This document shows positions 2,068-47,249 of a stretch of DNA of 64,000 nt, piece after piece (the stretch's first letter is position 1; every line of letters begins with the position of its first letter). Where the stretch lies: the NCBI GenBank assembly GCA_016213735.1, contig JACQZU010000016.1, positions 1-64,000 of the forward strand, given 5' to 3'. This stretch comes from Acidobacteriota bacterium. GTDB taxonomy: Bacteria > Acidobacteriota > Holophagae > Holophagales > Holophagaceae. Below the pieces are notes generated by a model that was not told where the DNA came from, searched no databases, and saw nothing but the letters and a program-made list of their open reading frames with translations. The translations under genes were made by a program, and so were the position numbers.

Positions 2068-2175
2068 GGGAGAGGCCCGCCAAGGGCGAGGGCACCCACC
2101 CTGCCCCCCTGGGATCTCCCTGAATGGTGGGCCTCCCCCCGTTTGCCAGGCCGGAGGGCCCGGTGCGCCGGTCTC

Positions 2176-3798
2176 TCAGCCCGTGGCGGTCGGAGCAACC
2201 GCGAGCACTTCGCGCACGCGCGCGAGAAGCTCGCGGTTGGCGAATGGCTTTGCCAGCACGCGGGTGCCGGGGGCCACCTCGACCTGCTCGGGGGCGTAGC
2301 CCGAGATCAGGAGGACCGGCACCCGTCCGGCCAGCCGCTGGACAAGCACGTCCCCGCGCAAACGGGGCATGACGATGTCCGCCACCACCAGCGCAATGTC
2401 CGGATGCCCGGCCAGCTGTTCCAGCGCCTCCTCACCGTCCTGGGCGAGCGTGACCCGGTATCCGGCACCTGTCAGCACGCGCTCCAGCAGCACCCGCACC
2501 GCGACATCGTCATCGGCCACCAGCAAGTGCTCGCTGCCTTCCAGACCATGCACACTGTGCACCACTCCGGGCAGGGACGCCATGTGGGCGTCCGCTTCCG
2601 GCAGGTAGATGGTGAAGCAGGTTCCCCGGCCTGGCTGCGAGTCCACTTCCACGGTCCCGCCGTGGCTGCGAACGACTCCGTCCACCACCGCCAGCCCGAG
2701 CCCGGTGCCCTTCCCGTAGGCCTTGGTGGTGAAGAAGGGGTCGAAAGCGCGACTGGAGATTTCGGGCGTCATGCCGATGCCCGTGTCCTCCACCGACAAC
2801 ATCGCCCAGCGTCGTCCGTCCCGTTCCGCCGAGTCTGCCACCAGGGTGATGGCGCCGGTGCCGGAGATGGCATCGCGTGCGTTGAGGACCAGGTTCATCA
2901 CCACCTGCTCGAGTTGGGCGGCATTGGCGAGCACTGTTCTCGGTCGGCCGCGGCGCTCAACCTGGAACGAGACGCTGGCCGGCAGCATGGATCTCAGCAT
3001 GGGCTCCAGCGCCGTCAATGCCCGGTCCAGATTCACGATCGCCCGCTCCACGGGCTGGCCCCGCGAGAACGCAAGCAACTGGCGGGTCAACCGCGCGGCC
3101 CGATCCGCCGCCGAACGCACCTCGCCGAGCAGTCCCTGAACCTTCTGTGGCTCGCCCGCGTAGGCGAGGGCAAGTTCTGTGTTGCCAATGATGGGCACCA
3201 GAATGTTGTTCAGGTCGTGCGCGACCTCCCCCGCCATCCGGCCCAGCGCCTCCAGCCGCTGCTCTCGCACCACGGACGCCTCCAGAGCCCGGTGCTTTTC
3301 CTCCACCCGCAGACGTCCGGCGACCACCGAGATGAGCGCGGCCACCTCCTCGGCGAACGCCAGTTCGTCCGGGGTGGGAAGCATGACCCCCTCGGCCGCA
3401 AAGGTGGCGATGTTGAGGCACCCCATCCGCTCACCCAGCCGGAGCATGGGGACGACGATGACGGTCCGGTTCCCGAAAACCTCCACCTGCCTCTGGTCGG
3501 CTTCCTCACACAGTCGCAGGTCCGGGAACACGAGGGTCTTATCGGCCGTCATCGCCATGGAGAGGAGCCGGTCCTTGCGCCAGTCGTGTTCGGCCATGCG
3601 TTGGTTCACCAGCTCGCGGTCGGCGACGGCGTAGCCGACGACCTCGAGCCCGACACCGCCCTCGATCGGCATCAAAAGGTAGGCACGCCGGTAGCGGGTG
3701 GCCTCCCCGAGAGCGTCCATCACGCGCTCCATCACCTCGGACAATGTCGTGGTCGCGTGGAGCTGGCGGGCCAGCGTGAGCAAAGTGGAGGATGACAT
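2176..3798 (-). CDS. Hybrid sensor histidine kinase (GAF-HisKA-HATPase-REC)
   Basis: This is a predicted cytoplasmic two-component sensor of 540 residues with no membrane segment. A GAF-like sensory region (about 15-165) leads into a HisKA domain with the phospho-accepting His near 194 (GEVAHDLNN). The ATPase domain has the N box (NLVLNARDA), a DTGIGM G1 box, FDPFFTTK and GKGTGLGLA. A receiver domain follows (acidic pocket VADDD near 428, phospho-acceptor Asp near 474 in VVADIVMP, Lys in LAKPF). There is no DNA-binding output and no partner regulator beside it, so the signal must pass on or be used by phosphorelay. It is convergent with yciO and divergent from a decayed hydrolase. Confidence 0.9.
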   Translation of the reverse strand: MSSSTLLTLARQLHATTTLSEVMERVMDALGEATRYRRAYLLMPIEGGVGLEVVGYAVADRELVNQRMAEHDWRKDRLLSMAMTADKTLVFPDLRLCEEADQRQVEVFGNRTVIVVPMLRLGERMGCLNIATFAAEGVMLPTPDELAFAEEVAALISVVAGRLRVEEKHRALEASVVREQRLEALGRMAGEVAHDLNNILVPIIGNTELALAYAGEPQKVQGLLGEVRSAADRAARLTRQLLAFSRGQPVERAIVNLDRALTALEPMLRSMLPASVSFQVERRGRPRTVLANAAQLEQVVMNLVLNARDAISGTGAITLVADSAERDGRRWAMLSVEDTGIGMTPEISSRAFDPFFTTKAYGKGTGLGLAVVDGVVRSHGGTVEVDSQPGRGTCFTIYLPEADAHMASLPGVVHSVHGLEGSEHLLVADDDVAVRVLLERVLTGAGYRVTLAQDGEEALEQLAGHPDIALVVADIVMPRLRGDVLVQRLAGRVPVLLISGYAPEQVEVAPGTRVLAKPFANRELLARVREVLAVAPTATG

Positions 3799-3863
3799 CG
3801 CGGGACAGTGTCGGATGGGCGCCCACCTCTTGCAAGCGGGGCGGCGCGCCCTGAGCGGATCTG

Positions 3864-4300
3864 ATGGCCAAGGAGGTGTTCAGCCCGCTTGGGATGAATT
3901 CCGCCACCATCAGCCGAAGCGAGTACAAGGGTCCGGTACCCTTCGGCCACCTTCGCGGTCCCGAGGGATTGGAGACGACCCGCAAGGCGCCCGTGGTGGC
4001 CAAGCTGTTCGCGCCCGCCGGCGGCGTGGTGCTGCCGGTCCGGAACTTCGCGCGTTTCGCCCTGGCCCAGGTCGATGCTCAGCGGGGGGGTGGCGCATTC
4101 CTGGGCGACCAGGTGCTGGACGTCCTTCCGGCCCTTCCTCCAGCCGAGGCGGCTGCCGTGGAAGGGGAGGTGTTCCTTGAGGGGCGAAGAGACCATCACC
4201 GCACGCCTCGCCACCTGGCCCGCGGCAGGGTTCGGCGTGGTGGTCTGCTCCAACCCGGCGACAAGGACGGCACCTGCATCGCCCCCCCGATGCCCTGAGG
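3864..4300 (+). pseudogene. Remnant of a serine hydrolase (beta-lactamase/PBP4-like)
   Basis: A stretch reading FSPLGMNSATIS, then PAGGVVLPVRNFARFALAQVDA, resembles the middle of PF00144 serine hydrolases. After about 4085 the similarity moves to another frame, where AAGFGVVVCSNPAT resembles the family's C-terminal GVVVLSN strand. The N-terminal SxxK nucleophile region is missing. I read this as a truncated, frameshifted relic. The rest of the gap, 4301-4665, shows no coding signal or clear repeat. Confidence 0.5.
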
Positions 4301-4665
4301 GCGCCTGAGCCACCTCAGATCCCGGCTCCGAAGCGTGAAGGGGGGCGCGGCCCGGGGTTGGGAGGGCCATGGCGGGCCGAAGGGACCAAGCCGTTTCAGG
4401 TGAAGGCCGTGGCGCCGAGTCTTCCGGCCGCACGCCTTGTCCCCCGCCCGAGCGCTGCCACCGGCCAGGGCCCTCCTGGGCCGGGGTGGGCGGGTCGGAG
4501 CCAGGTGGAGACAGACCGTGGCAGACATGGGAGGAGGCCCCCCGGCCGGGTGTATGACCCCCGCCGCCCCCATGGAACGAAGGGCCCGGGGACCGGGTGG
4601 GGAGGGAGGCCTTGAGTCAAACCCCTGGGGGTCTCCTCGTCTCAGGCGAGCGATCTCTCGGTTCC

Positions 4666-5802
4666 TTACCGCTTGTACGGTCTCGCAAGAGCGGCATCCC
4701 AGAGAGCCAGGGCGGGTTTGGGGCTTTCCGCGCTGTCGAGCAGGCCATCGAATTCCCAGACCCGCGCCAGTTCCTGGTCCGCCGGGGGAAGCTGGTCCAC
4801 GAGCTTGTCGAAATCCACCATCACCCAGTTCACGACGAACCCCATCCCGTGGGCCTGGGCCTGTTCAAGCAGCTGCTTGAGGTAGTGGTTCTGCAGGGCA
4901 GGCGAGCCCGGGAAGTTGTAGCCGAAGGCGGTGAAGGGCGCGGAGGGGAAGCCCGTCTCGGCGATGACCACGGGGCGGCCGGTGGAGGCGGCCATCGCCC
5001 AGGCCCCATCCAGGTAGGAGGCTGGAACCTCGGGCGCCACCCAGGGACCGTAAGGGTAGGTGCTCAACGCCAAGGCCTCGCAGTCCTGGAGCAGGTCCCG
5101 GACGGCCTGCTGCTGGAGGGCCTGTTTGCCTTGGGACTCGCTGGAGTAGCCCTGGAGGTGCTCGTACTGGACCGTGGCAAAAATGGGCAGCGCGGGGTGT
5201 TCCCGCTTGAGTTCCGTCCGCACCGAGCGGTACAGGTCCAGGTATTTGGCCCACTTCCCGGGATCCAGGCTCGCCAGCATGTTCACCTCGATGCCCAGCG
5301 CGAGGAAATCGGGTCGGAATTCCAGGAGGGCGGTCCGGCAGAAGGCGAGGAAGGCGGCCTTCACTTTGGGATCGTTCAACGCCAGCCCCGCCCATTCCGG
5401 GGGTAGGGGCGCGTGGTCCGTCTCCTGGGTCGCAAGGTCCGCAAGTCCGTCCCGGGCGATGTTCAAAGGCGTGAGGGCCAGGTAGAAGCGCTGGGAGGAA
5501 CCCGCTTCCGAGCGGACCCGGCGCCAGTTCCCCAGGACCCGGTCCGGAATGGGCTGCCCCTGGGCCATTTGGGGCCAGGGGACACCCTCCACCTGGTGGT
5601 ACACCGCCAGGTCGCAGTGGGTGCGCTTGCTCGCATACATCCGGGTGATCTGGGCAGGATCGAAGCTGGGTGGCCACTGGGAGGATCCCAGGAGGAAAGG
5701 GCGGCCGGGGGCTTCCGGCGGGGGTCCGGGGGGCTCCGGGCCTGAGCCTCCTCCGCAGGCCAGGAAGGCACTGAGAACCAAGATGGATCCAAGGGATTTC
5801 AT
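4666..5802 (-). CDS. Secreted lipoprotein with a glycoside hydrolase-like TIM barrel
   Basis: The 378-residue product has a short hydrophobic leader ending in a lipobox (SAFLAC, Cys 16), then a Gly/Pro-rich linker, so it is probably a membrane-anchored lipoprotein. The rest looks like a (beta/alpha)8 hydrolase of clan GH-A. ALGIEVNM places a candidate acid/base Glu near 172, and VIAETGFPS places a candidate nucleophile Glu near 282, the spacing expected for strands 4 and 7. DUF-type barrels and GH53 (endo-galactanase) have this layout; the substrate cannot be told. The start is supported by the leader peptide. The 89-bp repeat at 5867-5955 lies in its upstream region and may carry its promoter. 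Confidence 0.75.
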   Translation of the reverse strand: MKSLGSILVLSAFLACGGGSGPEPPGPPPEAPGRPFLLGSSQWPPSFDPAQITRMYASKRTHCDLAVYHQVEGVPWPQMAQGQPIPDRVLGNWRRVRSEAGSSQRFYLALTPLNIARDGLADLATQETDHAPLPPEWAGLALNDPKVKAAFLAFCRTALLEFRPDFLALGIEVNMLASLDPGKWAKYLDLYRSVRTELKREHPALPIFATVQYEHLQGYSSESQGKQALQQQAVRDLLQDCEALALSTYPYGPWVAPEVPASYLDGAWAMAASTGRPVVIAETGFPSAPFTAFGYNFPGSPALQNHYLKQLLEQAQAHGMGFVVNWVMVDFDKLVDQLPPADQELARVWEFDGLLDSAESPKPALALWDAALARPYKR

Positions 5803-5866
5803 GGGGGAATGTTACACCTGCGCCGTTCCGCCCTGCCCCGCGCGAGTCCATGGAAAGGAAGCGTCT

Positions 5867-5955
5867 GGCCGCGATGGGAGCCTCGGAGGGATCCAGGCAC
5901 CACCAGGTATGGTCCTGCAGGAAACGGGTCGAGTCTGAACGATGCCGGCCCCGCC
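5867..5955. repeat. 89-bp perfect direct repeat, copy 1
   Basis: This is identical to 9450-9538 (offset 3583). Weaker similarity extends about 20 bases to the left. It directly precedes the yciO relic in both places, and this copy lies 65-153 bases upstream of the lipoprotein start. Confidence 0.9.
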
Positions 5956-5969
5956 GCCAGAATGCATCT

Positions 5970-6300
5970 GCAGGTGTTGACCAGGCCCTACAGCGTGGCT
6001 CTCCCCGCCCACGAGCAGGTGCCCCTGGGCTGCGCCACGTGCAGACCGCAGGTCGGGGCCTCCCCGACGGTCCCTGCTGCCCGACCTTATCCGGACCCCA
6101 GGGGGAGCACCTCCCCACCCCGCCTACCCCACCAGGTCTCGCTCCCCAACACCTCCCCGGAGAACGGGGAGGAGCTGCGCCACGCCCTGGACCTCGGGGT
6201 GGACTGCGGCCAGCCCCGGGCGTCCCCTGCTCCGTCCTGGGCATGGCCGCCAGAGGACAGGTCCTCCTGCGCGAAGGGCCGGGGCCCTGGCCGGTCCAGG
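5970..6300 (+). pseudogene. Eroded yciO relic A
   Basis: Two blocks match yciO: 5970-6050 (weak, around the LLPGPYTVVLPASREV segment) and 6141-6299 (clear, from PLNTSW to the C-terminus PGPWPV). Frameshifts, substitutions and a missing centre rule out function. Downstream, 6300-6557 contains a degraded version of the hexamer array of relic B. The gap 5803-6819 holds no intact gene. Confidence 0.75.
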
Positions 6301-6557
6301 TGGAGGCCCTTTCGGGCAGGGGGACAGGCATGGCCCCGAGCCCGATCATGGACAAGGGCACGGACACGAGCCCTGCCCCCGCCCAAACCCGACAAGGGCA
6401 CGCAGCGACAGGGGAGGGCGCGCGGGCCTTCCAGGCGCAGCAGGGCGGAGGGGGCCTGGGCGGAGGCGCGGAAGACAGCGGCCGCTCGCGGGGGGTCCCC
6501 TGCCCTGTCCGCCGAACACCCCGGGAGTTGTCCGCCCGGGGGTGGGGGGCTTCAGGC

Positions 6558-6672
6558 TGCCGGGAGCAGCGCGACTGGAGGTCGCCTTGGCTCGCCCGTC
6601 GGGCCGGCGCGGAACACAGGGCCGCCTGCCCTGCTCCCCATCGCCCGCGCGGACCGCTCCATGACGGGGTGA
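6558..6672. repeat. Conserved 3' block of the duplicated module, copy A
   Basis: About 115 bases align without gaps to 11126-11240, at roughly 70-75% identity by eye. It closes the duplicated module (89-bp repeat, yciO relic, hexamer region, this block). Both copies read open on the minus strand with similar peptides ending PAA, but there is no start context to support a gene. Confidence 0.6.
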
Positions 6673-6819
6673 GGTGCTGGGGGCGTCGTTTCTCGGGGGA
6701 TAGCATTGTGCAGCTCCGTTGCGTCTTCCCCTGAATTCCGCAACGCCCACTCCGGTCGCGTCCCCATCGCCCGCCGCAACTCGCTCAGCGCCGGGGGAAG
6801 GTCCCGGGACCGCACCTGT

Positions 6820-8778
6820 TCAGCGAGGTTCCCGGTCCAGGCAGCCCCGCACCCGCCAAGCCAGTTCCTCGAGGTTGTAGGGCTTCGGCAGGAATTCCAC
6901 CCCCGGCTCGAGCAGGCCGTGCCGGCTGATGAGGTCCGCCGTGTATCCGGAGGTGTAGAGCACCCGCATGTTCTTGAGGCGGGACCCCAGCCGGGCGGAC
7001 AGTTCCCTTCCGTTCATGTCGGGCATGATGAGGTCGGTGACGAGGAGGTCGATGGTCCCGGCGGCGAGGGCCGCATCCAGGGCCGAGGTCCCGTCGGGGC
7101 AGGCCAACACCCGGTACCCGAGCCGGGCCAGGTATTCCTCGGCCACCCCCCGGATTCCCCCATCGTCCTCGGCCAGCAGGACCGTTTCGGACCCACCTCG
7201 GGCGGGGTGGATGGAACGAGCCCGGTGGATACCCACTGCTTCACCGATCACCCGGGGAAGGTAGATCTTGAAGGTCGTCCCGATCCCGGGTTCCGAGTAA
7301 ACGTCGATGAGGCCCTTGTTCTGCTTCAGGGCCCCGAATATGCTCGCCAGCCCCAGTCCCGTGCCTCGACCCATCTCCTTGGTCGTGAAAAAGGGTTCGA
7401 AAAGGCGGCCCATCACCTCCGGCCCCATGCCCGTCCCCGTATCCGACACCGACAACATGGCGTATTCTCCCGGGACCGCACCGGGATGCCGCTCCGCGTA
7501 GTCCTCGCCGAGGGTCACGTTGGCGGTCTCGAGGACCAGCCTGCCTCCGTCCGGCATGGCGTCCCGGGCGTTGACGGTGAGGTTGAGGATGATCTGGTCC
7601 AGCTGTCCGGGGTCGATCAGGGTGGTCCATAAACCCGGGGATCCTTTGATCGAAAGGCAGATGTCCTCCCCCAACAGGCGTCCCAGCATTCCCTCCATTC
7701 CCGCCAGCACCTGGTTCATGTCCAGCACTTTGGGCGAGATGACCTCCTTGCGGGAGAAGGCCAGAAGCTGCTTGGTGAGCATGGCGGCGCTTTCCGCCGC
7801 GCGGGCCAGGTTGTCCAGGTAAGTGGCGACCCCCGGGGTGGGCCCCAGAGCCCCACGGACCAGTTCGAGGTTCCCCAGGATGGCGGTCAGGATGTTGTTG
7901 AAATCGTGGGCCACTCCGCCCGCCAGGCGCCCGATCGACTCCATCTTCTGGGCTTGGCGAAGCTGCTCCTCGAGCTTGCGCCGTTCCGTCAGGTCGATGC
8001 CGATTCCCGCCATCATCGGCCCCTCGATCGAATCGATCCTCACTCCGGTGAGGAGGAAGGGCACGTAGGTGCCGTTCTTGTGAAGCAGCGCGCTTTCGAT
8101 GGCGTCCAACTGGACGCCGCGCTCTAGGATCCCCCGGGTGGCGTTCACGGCCATGTCGGAGGTTTCCTTCGTGGGATGCCAGTCCCCAACATAGAAGTCC
8201 CGAAGCTCATCGGGGGTGTAGCCGAGGAGGGTCTCGTGGTTGCGGTTCCAGCGCTTCAGGCGCAGGTCGGCGCCGTACAGGTAGAACACGCCGGGTAGCC
8301 CGTTGATGACCTGTTCGAAGAAGGTCCGCTCCCGCTCCAGGGCCGCTTCGACCTCTTTGCGTGCGCTGATGTCGATCGCGGTGCCGAGGTAGCCCGCCGG
8401 GGCACCGTCGGGAGTCCGCAGCGCCGTCACCGTGAGGTTGACGGTCAAGCGCTGGCCGTTTTTCCGGACGTACACCCACTCGCACTCCTCAGACGGCACC
8501 TGCCCCAGGCGCGCGATGAAGGTCTGGAATCCCGACACCTTCCGCCCGAGCTCCTTCTGCAGCCGTTCCGCCCGGGCTGCCACCTCCCGGGCCTCGTGGA
8601 ACTGGAGGACCGATTGGCCGAGGACCTCCCCTGCCGGATAGCCCAGCATCAGTTCCGCGCCGTGGCTGAACCCGGTGATCAGGCCCTCCAGGTTCGTGGC
8701 GATGAGGGCCACCCCCGTGGCGGAATCCAGGATTCTCCGGAGCTCCATCGAAGTGCCGAATCCGGTCGGGTGTTCCAT
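6820..8778 (-). CDS. Hybrid sensor histidine kinase (PAS-PAS-HisKA-HATPase-REC)
   Basis: A 652-residue soluble sensor kinase. Two PAS domains (about 10-140 and 150-265), each ending in a PAC-like [10 protein letters not shown] or [10 protein letters not shown] motif, precede a HisKA H-box with His near 291 (GGVAHDFNN). The ATPase domain shows [25 protein letters not shown] and GRGTGLGLA. The C-terminal receiver has the acidic pocket LLAEDDGG, a phospho-acceptor Asp in LLVTDLIMP and Lys in LPKPY. ATG 8778 is preceded by a very strong ggaggagggg site. There is no transmembrane helix and no adjacent regulator. The architecture is like the two large kinases at 43.8-50.3 kb, but with fewer sensor domains. 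Confidence 0.92.
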
Positions 8779-9353
8779 ACCCCTCCTCCCCCTCCGCGCA
8801 TCTTTCCACCTGCCGGCGCCCTGGTCCTCCTCCGCTCTCCAGACTCAGTATCGGAACATTACTCCAGGGGCTTCAATCCAGCCATCCCTTGGCGTCGTGC
8901 CTCGAATGGAAGGAGGCTTGGGGAGCTTCCTTTTCCCCCGCGATTCCCCCGTGCCCCGGGGCCGCCCCTCCCCAGCATCCGTTCCCCACCCCACGGGCCT
9001 CACCCCCCCCACTCCCAGAATTCCCTTGCCCGGCGCCAGCGGTCTCGCGGAGGTCCTGCTCGCCGGATCCATCGGTCCCCTCCTGCGGGTCCCCGTCCTG
9101 GTCGCCACCCTGCAGGCGTTCCACCCCCCCGGCCGCAGCGGGCCATCGGGGAATGCAAAACCCTTTGGCCTCAGGCCTCTCCATTTCCGACAAACCCATC
9201 TAGGCGAGGGCCGGCGGGTTAGCCCTGAATCCGATTCCAGGTTTGGAAGGCCAGACACACAACTTCGGAATATTCGTCACCATCATCAGGCACGAATGCG
9301 GGCACGCATTGATGGGGATGGCCGCCTCCCTCCCCGGGGGGATGGGCGGATAA
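8779..9353. other. Intergenic stretch without recognised content
   Basis: This lies between the kinase start and the first island repeat. It is C-rich on the plus strand in places (around 8940-9020), with no coding signal, terminator or strong inverted repeat seen. The kinase promoter should lie in the first 150 bases. Confidence 0.5.
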
Positions 9354-9415
9354 ATGGCTCCAATCTGATTCAGCCCTCCAGAGGGGTGGTTGGATCTTGA
9401 GCGCAGTGATCCCGT
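9354..9415. repeat. 62-bp dispersed repeat, copy 1
   Basis: This matches 12304-12365 at roughly 80-85% by eye, with shared ctgattc, gccctcc and ggtggttggat segments. It lies just left of the duplicated yciO module and may be another part of the same mobile or decaying unit. Confidence 0.7.
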
Positions 9416-9449
9416 GGGGGCATAGCAAGTCCAGGGGAAGGAATCCTTG

Positions 9450-9538
9450 GGCCGCGATGGGAGCCTCGGAGGGATCCAGGCACCACCAGGTATGGTCCTG
9501 CAGGAAACGGGTCGAGTCTGAACGATGCCGGCCCCGCC
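9450..9538. repeat. 89-bp perfect direct repeat, copy 2
   Basis: Identical to 5867-5955. The match to the intact yciO gene begins exactly where this repeat stops. Confidence 0.9.
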
Positions 9539-9694
9539 TTCCGGAGGCTCAAGCAGCTGCTGCCCGGCCCCTACCCCGTGCGGCTCCCCGCCAGCCGGGA
9601 GGTGCCCCGCTACCTGCAGGACAAGCAGACCGTGGGACTGCGCATCCCCGACCACCCCTTCTGCCGCGCCCTCGCCCGCCTCCTGGGGGAGCAC
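9537..9694 (+). pseudogene. yciO relic B, 5' segment (interrupted)
   Basis: This aligns without gaps to yciO 1718-1875, encoding the LKQLLPGP to LLGE region with high identity. The match ends abruptly 20 bases before the M23 peptidase stop codon and resumes at 10864. The missing 75 bases of yciO are replaced by 1.17 kb containing the peptidase gene. Confidence 0.88.
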
Positions 9695-9714
9695 GGGCCC
9701 CGGGGCGCCGGATC

Positions 9715-10755
9715 CTACTTCGGGGTGAAGTACACGCCCCTCACTGGGTTGAAGCCCGGTAGGTTGGCGAAACGCAGGGGCAGCGAGGGGTCCTCGAACA
9801 GCCGCGGGCCCGCCTGAAGTTGGTAGTGCAGGTGGGGGCCGTAGGAGTCGCCCGAGCTGCCGAGCCGGCCCACGACTTGGCCCTGCTTCACCCGATCGCC
9901 AGGCTTCACCGCCACCGAGCCCTGGCGGAGGTGCATGAGCACCGAGCACTCGCCGTTGCCGTGGTCGATCACCAGATGGTTGCCGGCGACCGCGCCGACC
10001 GGGTCCGGCAGGGCCGCCCAGGCCTCCTGCAGGATCGTCCCCGGTTTCGGATTGTCGGGCACGTCGTTGCGGCAGGAAGCCACCACGCCCTCCGCCGGGG
10101 CCAGCACCGGGTGGTCCCAACCGGCGTAGGATTCATTGCGGTCGCGGTCATCCACCTGCGGTTCGTAGTTCGGCCCCAGGGCCAGGACATCAATGGCGAA
10201 CTGGTTGGAGTAGCCTCCGTGGCCGCCATCCTGGACCGGGCCCTGTGTGAGGATCGCGGGTCCGCGAAGGGGGAAGGCCAGGACGGTCCTCGGCTGGTAG
10301 GCGTCCAAGGGCAGCTCCAGAGAAAGGGGCGACGCGGATCCGTCGAATTCCAGCCGCAGATTCATCCGGTCCACCGCCCAGGCAGCCGGGCGCAGGAAGC
10401 GCAGGCGCAGGTCGAAGGCCTCGTCCAGGTGGAAACGCCGCTGAATCGCCGAGGCGGCCGCGTCCGGGGCCAGCCGGTAGCGGTGGCCGGCAACCGGCGG
10501 CGCCAGCGCGGGTGCCTCGTAGCGAACCGTTTCGACCTTGCGGCGGCCGGACCACAGGGTGGCCTCGAGGGCGCGGGGGCGGATCCCAACCAGGTTCCCC
10601 GGTCCGACCACCAGGTCGACGACCCAGCCCTCGTAGCCGGGGCGGGTGCCTTCCTGGGCCTTGTGCACCCGCTCCGGCACCGGGCGCAGCCAGGCGGGTT
10701 CCGCGGAACCGAGGATCGCCGAGGAGAGCATGACCATCCGAAACCTTGCCCACAT
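9715..10755 (-). CDS. Secreted M23 (LytM-like) metallopeptidase
   Basis: The 346-residue protein has an N-terminal leader (RMVMLSSAILGSAEPAW) and is probably exported to the periplasm, where M23 enzymes cut peptidoglycan cross-links or activate amidases. The catalytic domain occupies the C-terminal half: NQFAIDVL (candidate metal-binding Asp near 189), NHLVIDHGNG, VLMHLRQGS and the diagnostic HLH near 308-310 in GPHLHYQL. The first His ligand is less clear, so activity is likely but not certain. ATG 10755 is chosen for ttggagg seven bases upstream and the leader; longer upstream reading only translates repeats. The gene sits inside a broken yciO copy in opposite orientation. Confidence 0.85.
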   Translation of the reverse strand: MWARFRMVMLSSAILGSAEPAWLRPVPERVHKAQEGTRPGYEGWVVDLVVGPGNLVGIRPRALEATLWSGRRKVETVRYEAPALAPPVAGHRYRLAPDAAASAIQRRFHLDEAFDLRLRFLRPAAWAVDRMNLRLEFDGSASPLSLELPLDAYQPRTVLAFPLRGPAILTQGPVQDGGHGGYSNQFAIDVLALGPNYEPQVDDRDRNESYAGWDHPVLAPAEGVVASCRNDVPDNPKPGTILQEAWAALPDPVGAVAGNHLVIDHGNGECSVLMHLRQGSVAVKPGDRVKQGQVVGRLGSSGDSYGPHLHYQLQAGPRLFEDPSLPLRFANLPGFNPVRGVYFTPK

Positions 10756-10863
10756 CGAGAACCTCCAAGGCGCGTCACCTGCTACGCGCCGCGCCCCGGT
10801 CCCGCTTAGGGCGGCGCTCGGGACGGCGCACTCCACGGGAAAGGGCCGGCGACAAGGATCGGT

Positions 10864-10980
10864 GCCCTGGACCGGGTGGTGGACTCCGGCCAGCCCCTGG
10901 GCGTCCCCCGCACCGTTCTGGACACGACCGGCGAGGAGCCTGTGATGCTGCGGGAGGGCGCGGGGGCTTGGCCGGTGTAG
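10864..10980 (+). pseudogene. yciO relic B, 3' segment
   Basis: This aligns to yciO 1951-2067, from ALDLVVDCGQPLGVP to the stop codon, which is retained (gccggtgtag). With 9537-9694 it forms one duplicate interrupted by the M23 gene. Similarity to the intact locus ends a few bases after the stop. Confidence 0.88.
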
Positions 10981-10995
10981 GGGGAGGCTGCGGGC

Positions 10996-11124
10996 CCGAT
11001 CACGATCACGATCACGATCACGGTCACGGACACGAACACGGGCACGAGCACGAGCGCGGGCACAAGCACGGCCACGAGGACGAGCACGAGCATGAGGACG
11101 AGCGCGGAAACGAGCATAGTCATG
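10996..11124 (+). repeat. Degenerate hexanucleotide tandem array 1
   Basis: About 21 units of CACGAT, CACGGG, CACGAG and variants run in a 6-base register. Translated on the plus strand this gives a His/Glu/Gly/Asp-rich string (DHDHDHGHGHEH), which I regard as a by-product of the repeat. Arrays 2 and 3 carry the same unit in the opposite orientation. Confidence 0.85.
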
Positions 11125-11125
11125 C

Positions 11126-11240
11126 CGCCGGGAACAGCGCCTCTGGAGGCGCCGGGGCCTCGGGCGTTGGGCCGGTGCGGAACAAGGGGTCACCGGCCTT
11201 GCCCCCGTTCGCCCGCGCGGCCCGCTCAGTCACGGGTGGG
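11126..11240. repeat. Conserved 3' block of the duplicated module, copy B
   Basis: Counterpart of 6558-6672. It follows the hexamer array directly. Beyond about 11250 the two modules share nothing. The remaining gap to 11544 shows falling GC and no other gene. Confidence 0.6.
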
Positions 11241-11544
11241 GCGTTATTGGCATCGATCCTGGGGGGGAGAGCACCACAGGCCCCACTCAGCCCTCGGAGG
11301 CAAACCACCCGCCTCCAGGGTGAACAACCTCTTTAGCCTCGACACCTAGGGGAGAAGCAGCCATCCCCGTGAAAAAGGGGCCTGTGGGTTGAAGGCCAAG
11401 CGATGAATCAGGGTCATGGTGGCCAGCGGGGGCCCTGGGGAGAATTCAACTGCCCAGGGGTTTCCAAAAAACATCATATTTGTTATTCTTCCAACATGCT
11501 TTGTAACGGACGGTGTGTTCACCGGCCTCACCAAGGGAGCGAAA

Positions 11545-12171
11545 ATGTGGAAATTTAATTGGGCCGCCCTTGTTTGTTTTGCCTGCCTGCCCGGCCTCGC
11601 GGGCGATAAGGACATCACCCTGATTGCCACCAAGCAGTTCACTCGTACTTCGGCCTATTCCAACGGTGCTGTGGCATTAAGGTATGATGTTGAACAACCA
11701 ATGGGAATGAATATTAGGTTTGGATGGATGGTTCAACAAATCACTAATTTTTATTTTCAAGTGTATTTTTCTTATCATTTTACGACTTCAGCCGCTGTTC
11801 GAATTGACGGAATAAATAAACCACCAATTGATAAGCTTGACCCAAGTTTTTCATCGAGATTGACTGATGATTTCAAAAATCAAGGATTGAGTGTTGGAAT
11901 TTCGATTAATAGACATCAATGGATTGATTATGGTTTTGGACTGGAAGCGAGAATGGAACGTTTGTGGCAGTTTGATGCAAGGGAGACCTACACTCGCCCC
12001 TGGGCTCGGGCCAACGTTGGGACAGTAATAAAAAACGGGAAAATATCCAACTTGTTTGGTTTTGAAACTTCCGTTGCCCTGACCAGAGTACATTCTAACC
12101 CCACCGGGTTGGACTTGAAATCCTTTGCTCCGAACCGAGAAGTTGGAATATTTATGGGAATCAGGTACTGA
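11545..12171 (+). CDS. Predicted outer-membrane beta-barrel protein, low-GC
   Basis: No family is recognised. The 208-residue product starts with a signal peptide (MWKFNWAALVCFACLPGLAG), then alternating aromatic/polar segments such as FYFQVYFSYHF and GYGFGLEARMERL-like strands. It ends in the aromatic terminus GIRY, typical of outer-membrane barrels. ATG 11545 has a gggagcg site and gives the leader; an in-frame ATG at 11416 would put 43 extra residues before it. Base composition is clearly lower in GC than all neighbours, with codons such as tat, att, aat and aga common. It lies between repeats of the accessory island, so recent transfer is likely. Confidence 0.68.
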   Translation: MWKFNWAALVCFACLPGLAGDKDITLIATKQFTRTSAYSNGAVALRYDVEQPMGMNIRFGWMVQQITNFYFQVYFSYHFTTSAAVRIDGINKPPIDKLDPSFSSRLTDDFKNQGLSVGISINRHQWIDYGFGLEARMERLWQFDARETYTRPWARANVGTVIKNGKISNLFGFETSVALTRVHSNPTGLDLKSFAPNREVGIFMGIRY

Positions 12172-12303
12172 TTATGAGAGATTCAAACGAGGGAAGAATC
12201 CGCAAGCACGCACTGGGGTGATTGGCTCCCGTGACGAGCGCAATAGGAAGAAAAAGCCACAAATCCGAGCGAAGAACGGCCAATGTTGGGGATAGGAGGA
12301 TTC

Positions 12304-12365
12304 AGGGCTCCATTCTGATTCGGCCCTCCGGGGTGGTGGTTGGATTTTGAGGGTAGCGATCCCGT
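12304..12365. repeat. 62-bp dispersed repeat, copy 2
   Basis: Partner of 9354-9415. The gap 12172-12703 otherwise holds an AT-rich patch with a small ccagaa/ttctgg hairpin near 12422 and the hairpin at 12485-12513; no gene is supported. Confidence 0.7.
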
Positions 12366-12484
12366 TTGAACGGTGGCATCACACCCGACAGCAACAACGG
12401 AAACCACTGGACAAAAAAATCCAGAAATAATTTCTTCTGGTGGCTGATTCGAGGACGAAATTTCAGTTTTTTGACGGGCTGATG

Positions 12485-12513
12485 CCGGGGTCTGGGATTG
12501 CCCAGACCCCCGG
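12485..12513. terminator. Strong GC hairpin, possible terminator
   Basis: A stem of ccggggtctggg with cccagacccccgg (loop attg, one bulge) lies between the barrel gene and the four-helix gene. There is no T run on the plus-strand side; on the minus strand it would follow the four-helix gene at 12704. The role is uncertain. Confidence 0.4.
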
Positions 12514-12703
12514 GCTGCGCCGCTTCCGGATGGTCATACCCGCAGTGTAGCGAAAAAGCGGAAGCGCATCTTGGTGCCCCGGCTACGGGGCTGCCCCTTT
12601 CGCTTGGTGCAGTCCAGAATCCCCTGGACCACCGTCGGCCTGGTGATGACGGGGCTGTGCGGCATCAGCGGGTCGCACTTGACCCTGGCAAGGCCCCACG
12701 CCC

Positions 12704-13078
12704 TCACCCCCCCGCCCACTCCCGCAGCCTCGTCAGCATCGCCAGGACCCTCAGGGTCAGGCCCTTCGCCGCGTCCCTGGCCGCCGGGGCGCATCCACCA
12801 CGGTGGAGCAGCAGCGTCAGGGCAGCGTCGAGTTCCAGCGCCGAACCGCGTGAGATCTTCAGCGTCCGTGCGCGGTCGGCGCCTTCGCGGCCCATGGCTT
12901 CCGCGAGGTTGAGCACCACGCTTCCGCTCGCCCGCTGGGCCTGGTCGGCCAGCCACGCGTGGCCGCGGGGGGCCTTCCGCGCCATCGCCACGACGAGCGC
13001 GTCCAGCTCCACCGCCACCCGGTAGGCGTCCAGGCGCTCGTGGTCGAGCCTCGTGCCCGCTGTTTCTTCGATCGTCAT
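12704..13078 (-). CDS. Four-helix-bundle protein (S23/bAvd family)
   Basis: The 124-residue helical protein matches the family known as four-helix-bundle or S23/IVP, found in 23S rRNA intervening sequences and related to the Avd accessory protein of diversity-generating retroelements. Recognisable parts are the opening LDAYRVAVELDALVVAMA, then QAQRASGSVVLNLAEAMGR, the family core. No reverse transcriptase or rRNA lies nearby, so this is a free-standing member of unknown role. The start at 13078 is preferred over 13084 because the aaggagg site then has correct spacing. That site sits in one arm of the inverted repeat 13085-13156. A second member is transcribed divergently at 13439. Confidence 0.8.
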   Translation of the reverse strand: MTIEETAGTRLDHERLDAYRVAVELDALVVAMARKAPRGHAWLADQAQRASGSVVLNLAEAMGREGADRARTLKISRGSALELDAALTLLLHRGGCAPAARDAAKGLTLRVLAMLTRLREWAGG

Positions 13079-13084
13079 TTCCAT

Positions 13085-13156
13085 CCTCCTTCGCTCCGGC
13101 CGCGCCGCGCGGCTTCGCAAGAACCCGGCCGTGCGGCGCGGGCGGAGCGAAGGAGG
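13085..13156. repeat. 24-bp near-perfect inverted repeat over the four-helix ribosome-binding site
   Basis: Arms 13085-13108 and 13133-13156 pair with one mismatch around a 24-base loop. The left arm contains the ribosome-binding site of the minus-strand four-helix gene. A further perfect hairpin (ggcgc-tga-gcgcc) follows at 13155-13167. In RNA the structure would hide the binding site. Confidence 0.85.
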
Positions 13157-13170
13157 CGCTGAGCGCCTTT

Positions 13171-13299
13171 CGTCACCGTCTTCGTGCCCGCCTTCGTGCC
13201 CGCCTTCGTGCCCGTGCCCGTGCCCGCGCCCGTGCTCGTGCCCGTGCCCGTGGTCGTGCCCGTGCTCGTGCCCGTGCGCGTGCTCGTGCTCGTGCTCGG
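13171..13299 (-). repeat. Degenerate hexanucleotide tandem array 2
   Basis: About 21 units of CGTGCC, CGTGCT and CGTGCG (the complement of array 1's CACGGG/CACGAG units) lie between the divergent four-helix genes. The first part has a longer 12-base period (ttcgtgcccgcc). The gap 13079-13438 consists of the inverted repeat, this array and about 140 bases that must hold the promoter of the plus-strand gene. Confidence 0.85.
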
Positions 13300-13438
13300 A
13301 AAACCTCTACCGGATTGAGTTTCGTGCAAGTGTGCGGCTGGAGGAATTCTCAGCTTCCTCCATTTCCGCCGTCCCCCCTGCGGCCGTCGTGCTGGGGCGA
13401 GGACGGTCCTCGGTGGGCCGGCGGAAAAGGAGGATTAG

Positions 13439-13777
13439 ATGGATCGGAAGTTCGAGGCTCTGGAGGTCGCGATGGAGATGGCCGCTGCGCTGCGGCCATC
13501 GCTGGAGGCGCTGGCGCGGCGGGACCGCGGCCTGGAGGACCAGGTGCGCCGGGCGGCGGCGTCGGTGGTGCTGAACATCGCGGAAGGGGCGGAGCGGCGC
13601 GGGAAGGACCGGCTGCAGCACTACCGGATCGCGGCGGGGAGCGCGGCGGAGGTGGGGGCCGGGCTGCGGCTGGCGCGGGTGTGGGGGTATGTGGAGGGGA
13701 CAGCCTGCGCGGAGGCGGAGGGCCTGGTCGTCCGGGTGCAGCAGATGCTGTGGCGGCTCACGCACGGGCCGGGGTGA
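13439..13777 (+). CDS. Four-helix-bundle protein (S23/bAvd family), second copy
   Basis: A 112-residue relative of the product at 12704-13078. The N-terminal FEALEVAMEMAAALRPSLE is followed by the same core, DQVRRAAASVVLNIAEGAERR, then a helix rich in Ala and Gly and a final helix VRVQQMLWRLTHG. ATG 13439 follows aaggagg at ideal spacing. The two proteins are diverged, so they are not a recent tandem duplicate. The pair is divergent, with hexamer arrays between and after. Members bind nucleic acid in the retroelement setting; here no partner is visible and no function is proposed. Confidence 0.82.
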   Translation: MDRKFEALEVAMEMAAALRPSLEALARRDRGLEDQVRRAAASVVLNIAEGAERRGKDRLQHYRIAAGSAAEVGAGLRLARVWGYVEGTACAEAEGLVVRVQQMLWRLTHGPG

Positions 13778-13781
13778 GGCG

Positions 13782-13856
13782 GCCGTGCGCGTGATCGTGT
13801 CCGTGCTCGTGATCGTGATCGTGATCGTGATCGTGATCGTGCCCGTGCTCGTGCCG
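13782..13856 (-). repeat. Hexanucleotide tandem array 3
   Basis: Units of CGTGAT and CGTGCT/CGTGCC repeat about 12 times, starting 5 bases after the four-helix stop and ending 32 bases before the nadB stop. The centre (gatcgt repeated) is nearly uncorrupted, so it is the youngest-looking of the three arrays. Confidence 0.85.
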
Positions 13857-13888
13857 CGACGGGGAGGGGCCGAGGGGCTTCCCTCGCC

Positions 13889-35944: not shown

Positions 35945-37423
35945 ATGGGCAAGAGCACCGGTTTCATCGAGTACGCCCGCCAGCTCCCGGAAGACCGGGA
36001 CCCCCGCGACCGGGTGAAGGACTGGAACGAATTCCATCCCCGGGTCCCCGCCGAGGCTCTCAAGCGTCAGGGCGCGCGCTGCATGGACTGCGGCACCCCC
36101 TACTGCCACACCGGAAAACTCATGGCGGGCATGGCCTCGGGCTGCCCCCTGAACAACCTGATCCCGGACTTCAACGACCTCGTGTACCACGGCCAGTGGC
36201 AACGGGCCCTCCGCCGCCTCCTGAAGACCAACAATTTCCCGGAGTTCACCGGCCGGGTGTGCCCGGCGCCCTGCGAAGGTTCCTGCACGGTGGGCCTCGA
36301 CGGGGATCCGGTGACCATCAAGGCGATCGAGTGCTCCATCATCGACACCGCCTTCGAGGAAGGCTGGGTCGGGCCCGAGTTGCCGGCCCTCCGCACGGGG
36401 AAGAAGGTGGCCATCGTGGGTTCGGGCCCCGCGGGACTGGCCTGCGCCGCCCAGCTCAACCTGGCCGGTCACACCGTCACCGTCTTCGAACGGGCGGACC
36501 GGATCGGCGGCCTCCTGATGTACGGCATTCCCAACATGAAGCTGGACAAGGCGCTGGTGGAGCGCCGGGTGGGTCTCATGGCCCGCAACGGCATCCGTTT
36601 CGTGACCGGCGTGGAAATCGGCCGTGACATTCCCTCGGAGAAGCTGCTGGAGGAGTACCACGCCACCGTCTTCTGCTGCGGCGCCACCCAGGCCCGGGAG
36701 CTGGAGGTGGAAGGGCGGCGGCTCGCCGGGGTCCACCTCGCCATGGACTACCTCACCGCCAACACCAAGAGCCTCCTGGACTCCAGGCTTGAGGACGGGG
36801 CCTACATCTCCGGAAAGGACAAGGACGTGGTGGTCATCGGGGGTGGCGACACCGGCACGGACTGCGTGGGCACCGCCTTGCGTCACGGGGCCCGGAGCGT
36901 GACCCAGTTCGAGATCCTCCCCCGGCCCCCTGCCCTGCGTGGCCGGGACAATCCCTGGCCCCAATGGCCCAAGGTCGCCGGGATGGACTACGGCCAGGAG
37001 GAGGCCGCCGCCCTCCAGGGCGCGGACCCACGCCACTACGGCATCCTCACCAAGCGTTTCGCGGGGGACGGCGCGGTGGCGGAGGTTCACACCGTGGACC
37101 TCCGGTGGACCCGCAGCGGGGAGCGGATGCAGAGCGAGGAGGTCCCCGGGAGCGGTCGGGTCTTTCCCGCCCAGCTGGTGCTCCTGGCCCTGGGTTTCAC
37201 CGGACCGGAGCGGAAGGGCCCCATCACCGAGCTGGGCCTCAAGCTGGATGGCAGAGGAAACGTGGTCTGCGACGGCCAGCGGATGACCAGCGTGCCCGGG
37301 GTTTTCGCGGCGGGGGACATGGTCCGCGGGCAGTCCCTGGTGGTCTGGGCCATCCACGAGGGCCGGAACACCGCCCGCAGCGTGGACCGCTACCTCATGT
37401 ACGGGGAGACCTACCTGCCTTGA
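35945..37423 (+). CDS. gltD: Glutamate synthase, small subunit
   Basis: The FAD/iron-sulphur subunit passes electrons from NADPH to GltB. In its 492 residues, N-terminal cysteines ([22 protein letters not shown]) bind two 4Fe-4S clusters. [11 protein letters not shown] is the FAD site, [10 protein letters not shown] the NADPH site, and [19 protein letters not shown] the C-terminal FAD motif. Its stop codon is the first base triplet of an 89-base-period repeat (37421-37498 and 37510-37587) that probably forms its 3' UTR. Confidence 0.97.
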
Positions 37424-37498
37424 TTTTCAGTGGGGGGCAAACGCTCGGCCTTGCCTCGCTGGGCCCCCCACACCCCCGCGCTCTCTCCCGGCCCAGCC
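37421..37498 (+). repeat. Structured 3' element, family 2, copy 1
   Basis: This starts at the gltD stop codon. The outer stem TGGGGGGC (37431-37438) pairs with GCCCCCCA (37463-37470). The linker is AAACG and an inner ggc-ctt-gcc hairpin lies within. The layout matches family 1 behind rpsO but with a longer outer stem and a different inner helix. Confidence 0.8.
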
Positions 37499-37509
37499 GC
37501 TCGATCGCT

Positions 37510-37587
37510 TGATCTTCAATGGGGGGCAAACGCTCGGCCTTGCCTCGCTGGGCCCCCCACACCCCCGCGCTCTCTCGCGGCCCAGCC
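37510..37587 (+). repeat. Structured 3' element, family 2, copy 2
   Basis: This repeats 37421-37498 with a period of 89 bases and very few differences, including the tgat.ttca lead-in. Copies 1 and 2 plus the relic at 37600-37792 fill the gap 37424-37809. Confidence 0.8.
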
Positions 37588-43805: not shown

Positions 43806-46800
43806 ATGCACGCCCCGGACCCGGGGCCCGCCCCCACGGGACCCATGGACCCCTTCCTGTCCCAGGCCCTGGACAAGGCCCGGGACGCCAAGTTCGGCAT
43901 TCTGCCGGACGCTCGCATCTTCTATGTGAACGAGGCTGCCTGCAGGAGCCTGGGGTACTCCCGGGAGGAACTCCTGGGCCTGTCCGTCCCCGACCTGGAT
44001 CCCAACTTCCCCATGGCCCGCTGGGCCTCCCACTGGGAGGAAGTCCGGTCCGCCGGCACCCTCCTCGTCGAAAGCCTCCACCGCCGGAAGGACGGCGGAC
44101 TGATCCCCGTGGAGATCTCCATCACCATGCTCAGGGTCGGGGCGGAAGAGCGCCTCTTCGCCTCCGCCCGGGACAATTCCTGGCGGGCATCCGCGGAGGC
44201 AGCCCTGCGGGCCAGCGAAGCGCGGTTCAGGACCATTTTCGAAAACGAGCCCGAGTGCGTGAAGGTGGTGGCTCCCGACGGAACCCTCCTGGACATGAAC
44301 CCCGCGGGCCTTGCCATGCTGGAGGTGGACGACCCCTCCCAGGCCATCGGTCATCCCATCACCGAGTGGGTCCCTCCCGAACAGCTTCCGGCCTTTCTCT
44401 CCATTGCCCGGCGCGTCATGCAGGGAGAGACGGTCGAGGGCTCCTTCCAGATGGTCGGGGGCCGGGGAACGAGGCGCTGGATGGAGACGCGCGCAGCCCC
44501 CTGGCGGGACGGAGAGGGCGCCGTGGGCGGCCTCCTGGCCGTGACCCGGGACATCTCCGCCCGGAAACGGGCGGAGGAGGAACTGGTGGCGGCCGAACAG
44601 CGCTACCGGGGCCTCTTCGAGACCATGGCCCAGGGGGTGGTGTACCAGGACGCCGAGGGGCGGATCACGGCCGCCAATCCAGCGGCCGAGCGGATCCTGG
44701 GCCTGAGTCTGGCCCAGATGATGGGGCTGACCTCGATGGACCCTCGCTGGGGAGTCATTCACCCGGACGGGAGCCCCTTCCCCGGCCAGGACCACCCCGC
44801 CATGGTGGCCCTTCGGACCGGTCAGCCGGTGCGGGATGTCCTGATGGGGATCTTCCATCCGGGCACGGAGCGGCACCGCTGGGCCCTGGTGAGCGCCGTG
44901 CCCGAAACGCGGCCCGGGGAAGAAGGCCCCTGGCAGGTGTTTGCCACCCTCACCGACGTCACGGAACTCACCGACGCCCGCCAAGCCCTTGAAACCGCCG
45001 AGCGGCGGCTCCGAACGGTGGTGTCGAACTCCGACGCGGTGATCTTCCAGCTGGATCCGGAGGGCCGATTCCTGCTTTCGGAAGGGCGGGGCCTGGCGGG
45101 TCTGGGGCTCCGGCAGGGCCAGGTGGTGGGGCTCTCCGCGCTTGAGATGTACAAGGACTTCCCTGAGATTCTCGCGGCCCTGCGCACCGGTCTGGACGGG
45201 AAGTCCGCCCGCGGCCTGACCGAAATCCAGGGGAAGGTGTTCGACAATTTCATCACGCCCGTCCTGGACGAGGGGGGCCGGGTCGAAAGCGTGATCGGCA
45301 TCGCCACCGACATCACCGAGAAGGTCAGGATGGAACGGGCCCTCCGCGACAGCGAGGCCCGCTTCCGCTTGATGGCCGAGAGCCTTCCCGTGGTGCTCTA
45401 CGAGCTTCGCCAGGAGGGGGAGAGTCAATCCTTCACCTACGTCAGCGAGAGGATCCAGAGCCTGGCGGGAATCACCGCCACCCGGATGACCGCCGACCCG
45501 GAGGCCTTCTTCGACCTCGTCCACCCCGAAGACTTGCCGGGGCTCCGGGCCGCCGGAGCCCAGGCCGCGGCCAAGCTCACCCCCCTGTCGGTGGAATTCC
45601 GCCTCACCCGGCCCGACGGGGAGCTTCGCTGGATTCACGCCGAACGCCTGCCCCGGGCATCGAATTCCCTGTCCAGCATTTGGAGCGGCTACCTCAGGGA
45701 CATCACGGAGCAGCGGCGGGCGGCCCAGGCCCTGCGGGACAGCGAGGCCAGCTACCGGGGGCTTTTCGATTCGGTGGGTGAGGCCATCTACATTCAGGAT
45801 TCCAGCGGCCATTTCCTGGATGTGAACCGGGGGGCGGAAGAAATGTATGGCTACACCCGGGAGGAACTGGTGGGGCAGAGCCCCGCGTTGGTCTCCGCCC
45901 CGGGTCGCAACAACATCCCTGACGTGATGCGCTGTGTGGAGCGTGCCTTCGCGGGGGAACCGCAGCAATTCGAATTCTGGGGGCTCCGGAAGAACGGGGA
46001 GGTCTTTCCCAAGGAGGTGCGACTCTACCGGGGCACCTACTTCGGTCAGAAGGTGGTCATCGCCATCGCCACCGACATCACCGAGCGGCGCCGCACCGAG
46101 GACGCCTTCCGTCAGGCCCAGAAGCTCGAAAGCCTCGGCATCCTGGCGGGCGGCATCGCCCACGATTTCAACAACCTGCTCACGGCCATCATGGGCAACC
46201 TCAACCTTGCCCAGGATCTCGTCGGGGAGCACGGAGGAGCCCGACCCCTGCTCGACAAGGTGGAGCAGACCGTCGTCCGGGCCTCGGACCTGAGCCGGCA
46301 GATGCTGGCCTACTCGGGGAAGGGGCATTTCGTCATCCGGCCCCAGGACCTCAATCAGATCGTGCGGGAAATGACGGGCCTTCTCCAGGTCTCCCTCCCC
46401 AAAAAGGTGCACCTGGACCTGCAGCTGGCCTCGTCCCTGCCTCTTTTCCGTGCGGACGCGGCCCAGATCCAGCAGGTGGTGATGAACCTCGTCACCAATG
46501 CGGGGGAGGCCATCGGGGATCAGGAGGGCCACATCACGGTCGCAACCTTTATGGCCGACCTGGACCGTGAGGTCCTCACCGCCGGCTTCCCCGGACAGTC
46601 CCTGGATGCCGGGACCTACCTCGTGCTGTCGGTCACGGACACGGGCTGCGGGATCTCGCCGGACATCCGCTCCCGGATCTTCGATCCCTTCTTCACCACC
46701 AAGAGTTCGGGACGGGGCCTGGGACTTTCCGCCATGCTGGGCATCCTGAGGGGACACGAGGCCGGGATCCGAATCCAAAGCGAGGTCGGACAGGGGAGCA

Positions 46801-47249
46801 CCTTCGAGGTGTTCTTCCCGGCGGGGGACGGCCTGGAACGGCTGGAAGAGATCGAACCGACCCCCAGCCGGCGGCGGCGGGCGGGCACCATCCTTCTCGT
46901 GGACGATGAGGAGATGATCCTGGAGGCCACGGGCGCGGCCCTGGAGGCGCAGGGTTTCCGGGTCGTCCGGGCGCGGGACGGGGTGCAGGCCATGGAACGC
47001 TTCATGGAACTGGGCAGCGACCTGGCCCTGGTGTTCATGGACCTGAGCATGCCGCGGATGGACGGGACGGCGGCGTTCCTGGCCATGCACCATTCCCTCG
47101 CCGACGTGCCGGTGATCCTCACCAGCGGCTACGACCAGAAGGAGGCCAGCGAGGACCTCCAGGCCCTGGGGCTCGCGGGCTTCGTCCAGAAACCCTACCG
47201 TTTCCACGACCTCGCCCGAGAAATAGACCGAGTCCTGGGTTCAACCTGA
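43806..47249 (+). CDS. Hybrid histidine kinase with six PAS-type domains
   Basis: A soluble 1147-residue sensor. About six PAS/PAC units occupy residues 20-765, most ending with a PAC motif ([36 protein letters not shown]). HisKA follows with His near 786 (GGIAHDFNN), then the ATPase domain ([35 protein letters not shown]). The receiver has the acidic pocket LVDDEE and phospho-acceptor Asp near 1079 (VFMDLSMP), and ends [10 protein letters not shown]. There is no transmembrane segment. Its last PAS and catalytic parts closely match the next gene, while the N-termini differ. No output regulator is encoded nearby. The start could also be ATG 43845. Confidence 0.93.

Follow-up and report, generated by a model that had tools for sequence, protein, structure and literature searches.

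The window, by which we mean the whole 64-kb stretch of DNA analysed here, is the first part of contig C8 in a 3.59-Mb Holophagaceae-like genome that is assembled in 28 contigs, is 97% complete and is the sole representative of its genus among the genomes compared. An intact yciO gene of the Sua5/YciO/YrdC family, the parent of the two fragments described below, lies near its start, at 1468–2067 on the forward strand (Pfam PF01300, 2e-48), in the gene order rpsO-NUDIX-yciO that is also found in relatives. In many relatives nadB comes next, tail to tail with yciO, at spacings of 16–17 bp, 41 bp, about 0.75–0.84 kb or about 2.2–2.4 kb; the remaining relatives have no nadB within the stretch examined. 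Two of the relatives with the longest gaps (L051 and L053) have a putative serine dehydratase gene and a putative small gene in it. In the present genome the gap between these two housekeeping genes, yciO and nadB (2068–13888), is expanded to 11.8 kb, compared with 16 bp to 2.4 kb in those relatives where it is measurable.

The expanded gap holds two composite units, described below, and a series of inserted genes. Pfam matches identify two hybrid histidine kinases, one with a GAF domain (2176–3798) and one with a PAS domain (6820–8778), an M23 peptidase on the reverse strand (9715–10755; PF01551, 1e-17) with homologues in four of 60 related genomes, the source genome included in the count, and two four-helix-bundle genes (12704–13078 and 13439–13777). 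A beta-lactamase-like fragment at 3864–4298 matches Pfam under the curated cut-off, and the protein genes at 4666–5802 and 11545–12171 have no assigned family. The stretches that separate the units from each other and from the neighbouring genes (2079–5841, 6700–9424 and 11267–13888) have mutual homology limited to generic histidine-kinase domains and a 78-bp direct repeat. This repeat (9338–9415 and 12288–12365, 82% identical) occurs genome-wide at these two sites only, and its first copy ends about 10 bp upstream of unit B.

The two units, A (5842–6694) and B (9425–11266), are both on the forward strand, in direct orientation and at most 9.5 kb from intact yciO. Each consists of a leader with an 89-bp repeat, a yciO 3' fragment, a hexamer-rich stretch or its remnant and a conserved block, with unit B split by the M23 peptidase gene. 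This four-part order had been pointed out in the initial annotation of the sequence and is common to the two loci far beyond chance. The same annotation described the intact yciO as free of the composite flanks, and similarity between the intact gene and the units does end 9–11 bp beyond its stop codon. The yciO part begins at codon ~81 in both units, and the novel join between the 89-bp repeat and this codon is present in A and B and absent at the intact gene.

The 89-bp repeat is perfect, as had been reported, and positions 5867–5955 and 9450–9538 are identical base for base, which makes it the longest exact repeat of the window. The perfect identity stops at the join with yciO, and the flanks of the two copies differ cleanly; about 31 bp upstream of the repeat are weakly similar between the copies (61% ungapped, compared with 28% for random pairs). 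At the surrounding identity of 67%, a run of 89 consecutive matches has a probability of about 2e-16, so the identity of the block is not a leftover of duplication. An unrelated pair of tandem 89-bp units, 96% identical to each other, lies at 37419–37587.

The yciO fragment of unit A (5970–6309, forward strand) is heavily decayed and aligns to intact yciO with 75% identity over 346 bp (E = 1e-53). The fragment of unit B is lightly decayed and is found in two forward-strand parts, 9529–9692, which has kept an open frame and is 89% identical to intact yciO over 164 bp, and 10864–10988, which includes the stop codon and is 87% identical over 126 bp. The interruption at 9693–10863 carries the intact M23 peptidase gene, and 77 bp of yciO are gone.

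The yciO fragment of unit B is followed by a hexamer array at 10997–11103, reported by Tandem Repeats Finder with period 6 and 17.8 copies. The initial description of a hexamer-rich stretch in both units thus applies fully to B, where the array is truly tandem, but only in part to A, which has a degenerate remnant that Tandem Repeats Finder does not report. Even so, when the two units are aligned, the match continues beyond yciO across the initial ~60 bp of the array (72.6% identity over 190 bp, E = 1e-20). The conserved block is present in a long form in unit A (6411–6694) and in a short form in unit B (11120–11266), and the two align over 6552–6699 and 11120–11266 with 75% identity (E = 1e-18). 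A third copy, with no adjoining yciO, is found on contig C10 (189046–189186) and is 72% identical to the block of A and 78% identical to that of B; the block is given as longer in A because the C10 copy aligns to it over 293 bp. We considered a larger repeat family, and in a sequence-model search only these three copies stand out. The C10 copy (locus L048, C10:183000–196000, around 189039–189450) adjoins an open reading frame whose match to the MazE antitoxin is weak (E = 0.005, under the curated cut-off).

Hexamer arrays elsewhere in this genome often bracket genes of the four-helix-bundle family PF05635. The source genome has 10 PF05635 matches; other genomes of its bacterial family that were searched have 0–2 each, and genomes from the rest of the phylum have at most 6. 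Period-6 arrays are found on both sides of the gene in the window (13164–13855), on contig C22 (L091), twice on C23 (L092 and L105) and on C12 (L104), and are probable on both sides of a PF05635 gene on C10 (L102), a locus at a contig end. In the window the arrays occupy 13164–13298 and 13783–13855, with PF05635 genes at 12704–13078 and 13439–13777. The array-bracketed units of C10, C22 and C23 are 85–91% identical over 418–634 bp, and the arrays that flank the C23 gene show the same succession of hexamer types. Two more C22 arrays are solitary and lie between other genes. The strict hexamer-array pattern was found in none of 59 other genomes searched.

Further repeats are present in the window away from the gap. 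The intergenic region after rpsO (395–707) contains near-identical repeats (up to 98%, with one exact run of 71 bp) that include G+C-rich inverted repeats. Two regions of about 1.5 kb each, 45727–47216 and 48759–50245, are 68% identical in direct orientation and are probably neighbouring histidine-kinase paralogues, since short parts of them match the kinase region 7857–8004.

Since one and the same novel join, followed by parts in the same order, is found in both A and B, a single composite appears to have been duplicated locally, and we regard as probable a local segmental duplication within the expanded yciO-nadB gap that was followed by insertions, decay and partial re-homogenisation. The proposal in the initial annotation that the composite was duplicated as a unit and then decayed therefore holds with respect to the shared join and order, but not with respect to simple decay, as the parts diverge unequally. 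Between A and B the divergence is 0% in the 89-bp repeat, about 30% in the adjacent yciO part and about 25% in the conserved block. Such uneven divergence argues against plain duplication and decay and for later exchange between the copies by gene conversion, so that local duplication needs gene conversion or constraint in addition. Selection on the 89 bp, or two copying events, appears less likely than gene conversion as the cause. In one respect constraint on the block may fit better: under gene conversion, the end of the 89-bp identity at the join would be a coincidence.

The order of events that we infer would begin with a single illegitimate join, in which a leader bearing the 89 bp became linked to a copy of yciO from codon ~81 onwards together with the array and block then downstream of it. 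The composite would next have been duplicated in direct orientation within the gap, where whole genes (the two hybrid histidine kinases, the M23 peptidase and others) would have gathered, one of them inserting into copy B. The duplicated copies would have decayed free of constraint, while gene conversion between repeats may have held the 89 bp identical and refreshed the yciO part of B from the intact gene; the conversion tracts are putative.

The history of the fragments was followed by aligning them with sequences from 31 relatives, which places both in the lineage of the source genome, and by counting private changes at the 254 sites that all three sequences (A, B and intact yciO) retain. 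Fragment A has 51 such changes (19, 19 and 13 at the three codon positions), fragment B 14 (4, 3 and 7) and intact yciO seven (0, 1 and 6), and the differences between intact yciO and A are spread evenly over the codon positions (30, 34 and 30), a flat, neutral pattern. The three sequences form a star, and with outgroups included hardly any change is common to A and B only. This scarcity, together with the unequal private changes (p = 4e-6 for B against A), means that A and B did not decay jointly, and that the yciO part of B was either copied later or re-converted from the intact gene. A foreign yciO allele was considered as the source of fragment B in view of the third-position excess in its differences from the intact gene (7, 7 and 20); it is unneeded, as synonymous changes in intact yciO itself account for part of the excess. 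The same unequal decay and star relation would be accounted for if two separate events had copied the yciO 3' end, an old one for A and a young one for B, each beside a pre-existing leader and block. We consider this unlikely, as two independent events, short of a site-specific process, would not place the join at yciO codon ~81 in both units and also give them an identical order of four parts.

Another reading has serial integrative elements inserted at the yciO 3' end, with A and B as displaced attR-like ends and the 89 bp as the end of the element. An intact target gene with displaced, truncated 3' copies nearby, cargo between them and an identical 89-bp end adjoining both is what such integration would leave behind. 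The initial annotation had likewise thought of a mobile-element relic while seeing no transposase, and in this last respect it was correct: a six-frame Pfam search of 2068–13888 gave no integrase or transposase. The relic itself finds no support, with no recombinase gene in any frame and no further copy of the composite in the source genome, in 60 family genomes or in genome, viral, plasmid and phage collections. The annotation had expected more four-part copies in Holophagaceae if an element were involved; the 60 family genomes contain none, and the element reading fails on this point. A transposon or insertion-sequence origin was also rejected, there being no transposase and no terminal inverted repeats; no inverted-repeat pair found sits at the unit ends. 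Serial integration moreover does not predict the same downstream sequence after A and B, and the older-looking fragment, A, is the one nearer to intact yciO. In the literature searched, two papers mention yciO along with genomic islands and integration, and to judge from their titles neither treats it as an integration target. Taken with the lack of an integrase or its relic and of copies in relatives, these points leave serial integration improbable.

The 89-bp block might instead be a functional sequence, a regulatory RNA or a recombination site, that is kept by selection with the yciO fragments as passengers. Its zero divergence beside about 30%, with the boundary at the join, is in keeping with this. 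On the other hand, the block folds no better than shuffled sequences, as DNA or as RNA, and it has no Rfam match; the weak matches to miRNA families at other places in the window lie far under the curated cut-offs and were discarded. An integron cassette (attC), which calls for a strongly folding site, was rejected on the same ground (z = +0.96 against shuffles). No promoter or terminator pattern was found near copy B, and the block has no other copy in the source genome or in the 60 family and 40 wider-phylum genomes searched (the source genome included), nor was it found in genome contigs (by a 22-base exact pattern), viral contigs, plasmids or phages. We therefore hold a function for the 89 bp to be improbable. 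An equally improbable reading is that the hexamer arrays act as substrates of recombination and so distribute array-bracketed, mostly PF05635, units through this genome, and that the same process caught a yciO 3' end with its array and left A and B as by-products. A false identity of the 89-bp copies, produced by assembly or polishing of a repeat, would suit a 28-contig assembly and an identical block of short-read scale, but is most improbable given the clean differences in the flanks.

Local duplication with later exchange thus remains our preferred reading, and the units appear to be nothing more unusual than remnants of local duplication within an intergenic gap that has expanded. The case suggests that a quiet intergenic site can expand by local duplication and single-gene insertions with no visible mobile element, and that parts of one repeated module can differ in apparent age, so that decay alone cannot date a duplication; by itself it alters little for the field. 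Among known systems, genomic islands at gene 3' ends, bounded by attL and attR, also combine an intact gene and truncated 3' copies with cargo between them, but here there is no integrase, the same sequence follows both fragments and the arrangement is absent in relatives. Bacterial duplication and amplification differ from A and B in that the intervening sequences are here non-homologous, so that no plain tandem array can be made out (homology between repeated units would be expected only if such an array were recent), and in that divergence is unequal between the parts. They resemble A and B in the direct orientation of the copies, in a repeated novel join that is absent at the parent and in being confined to the vicinity of that gene.
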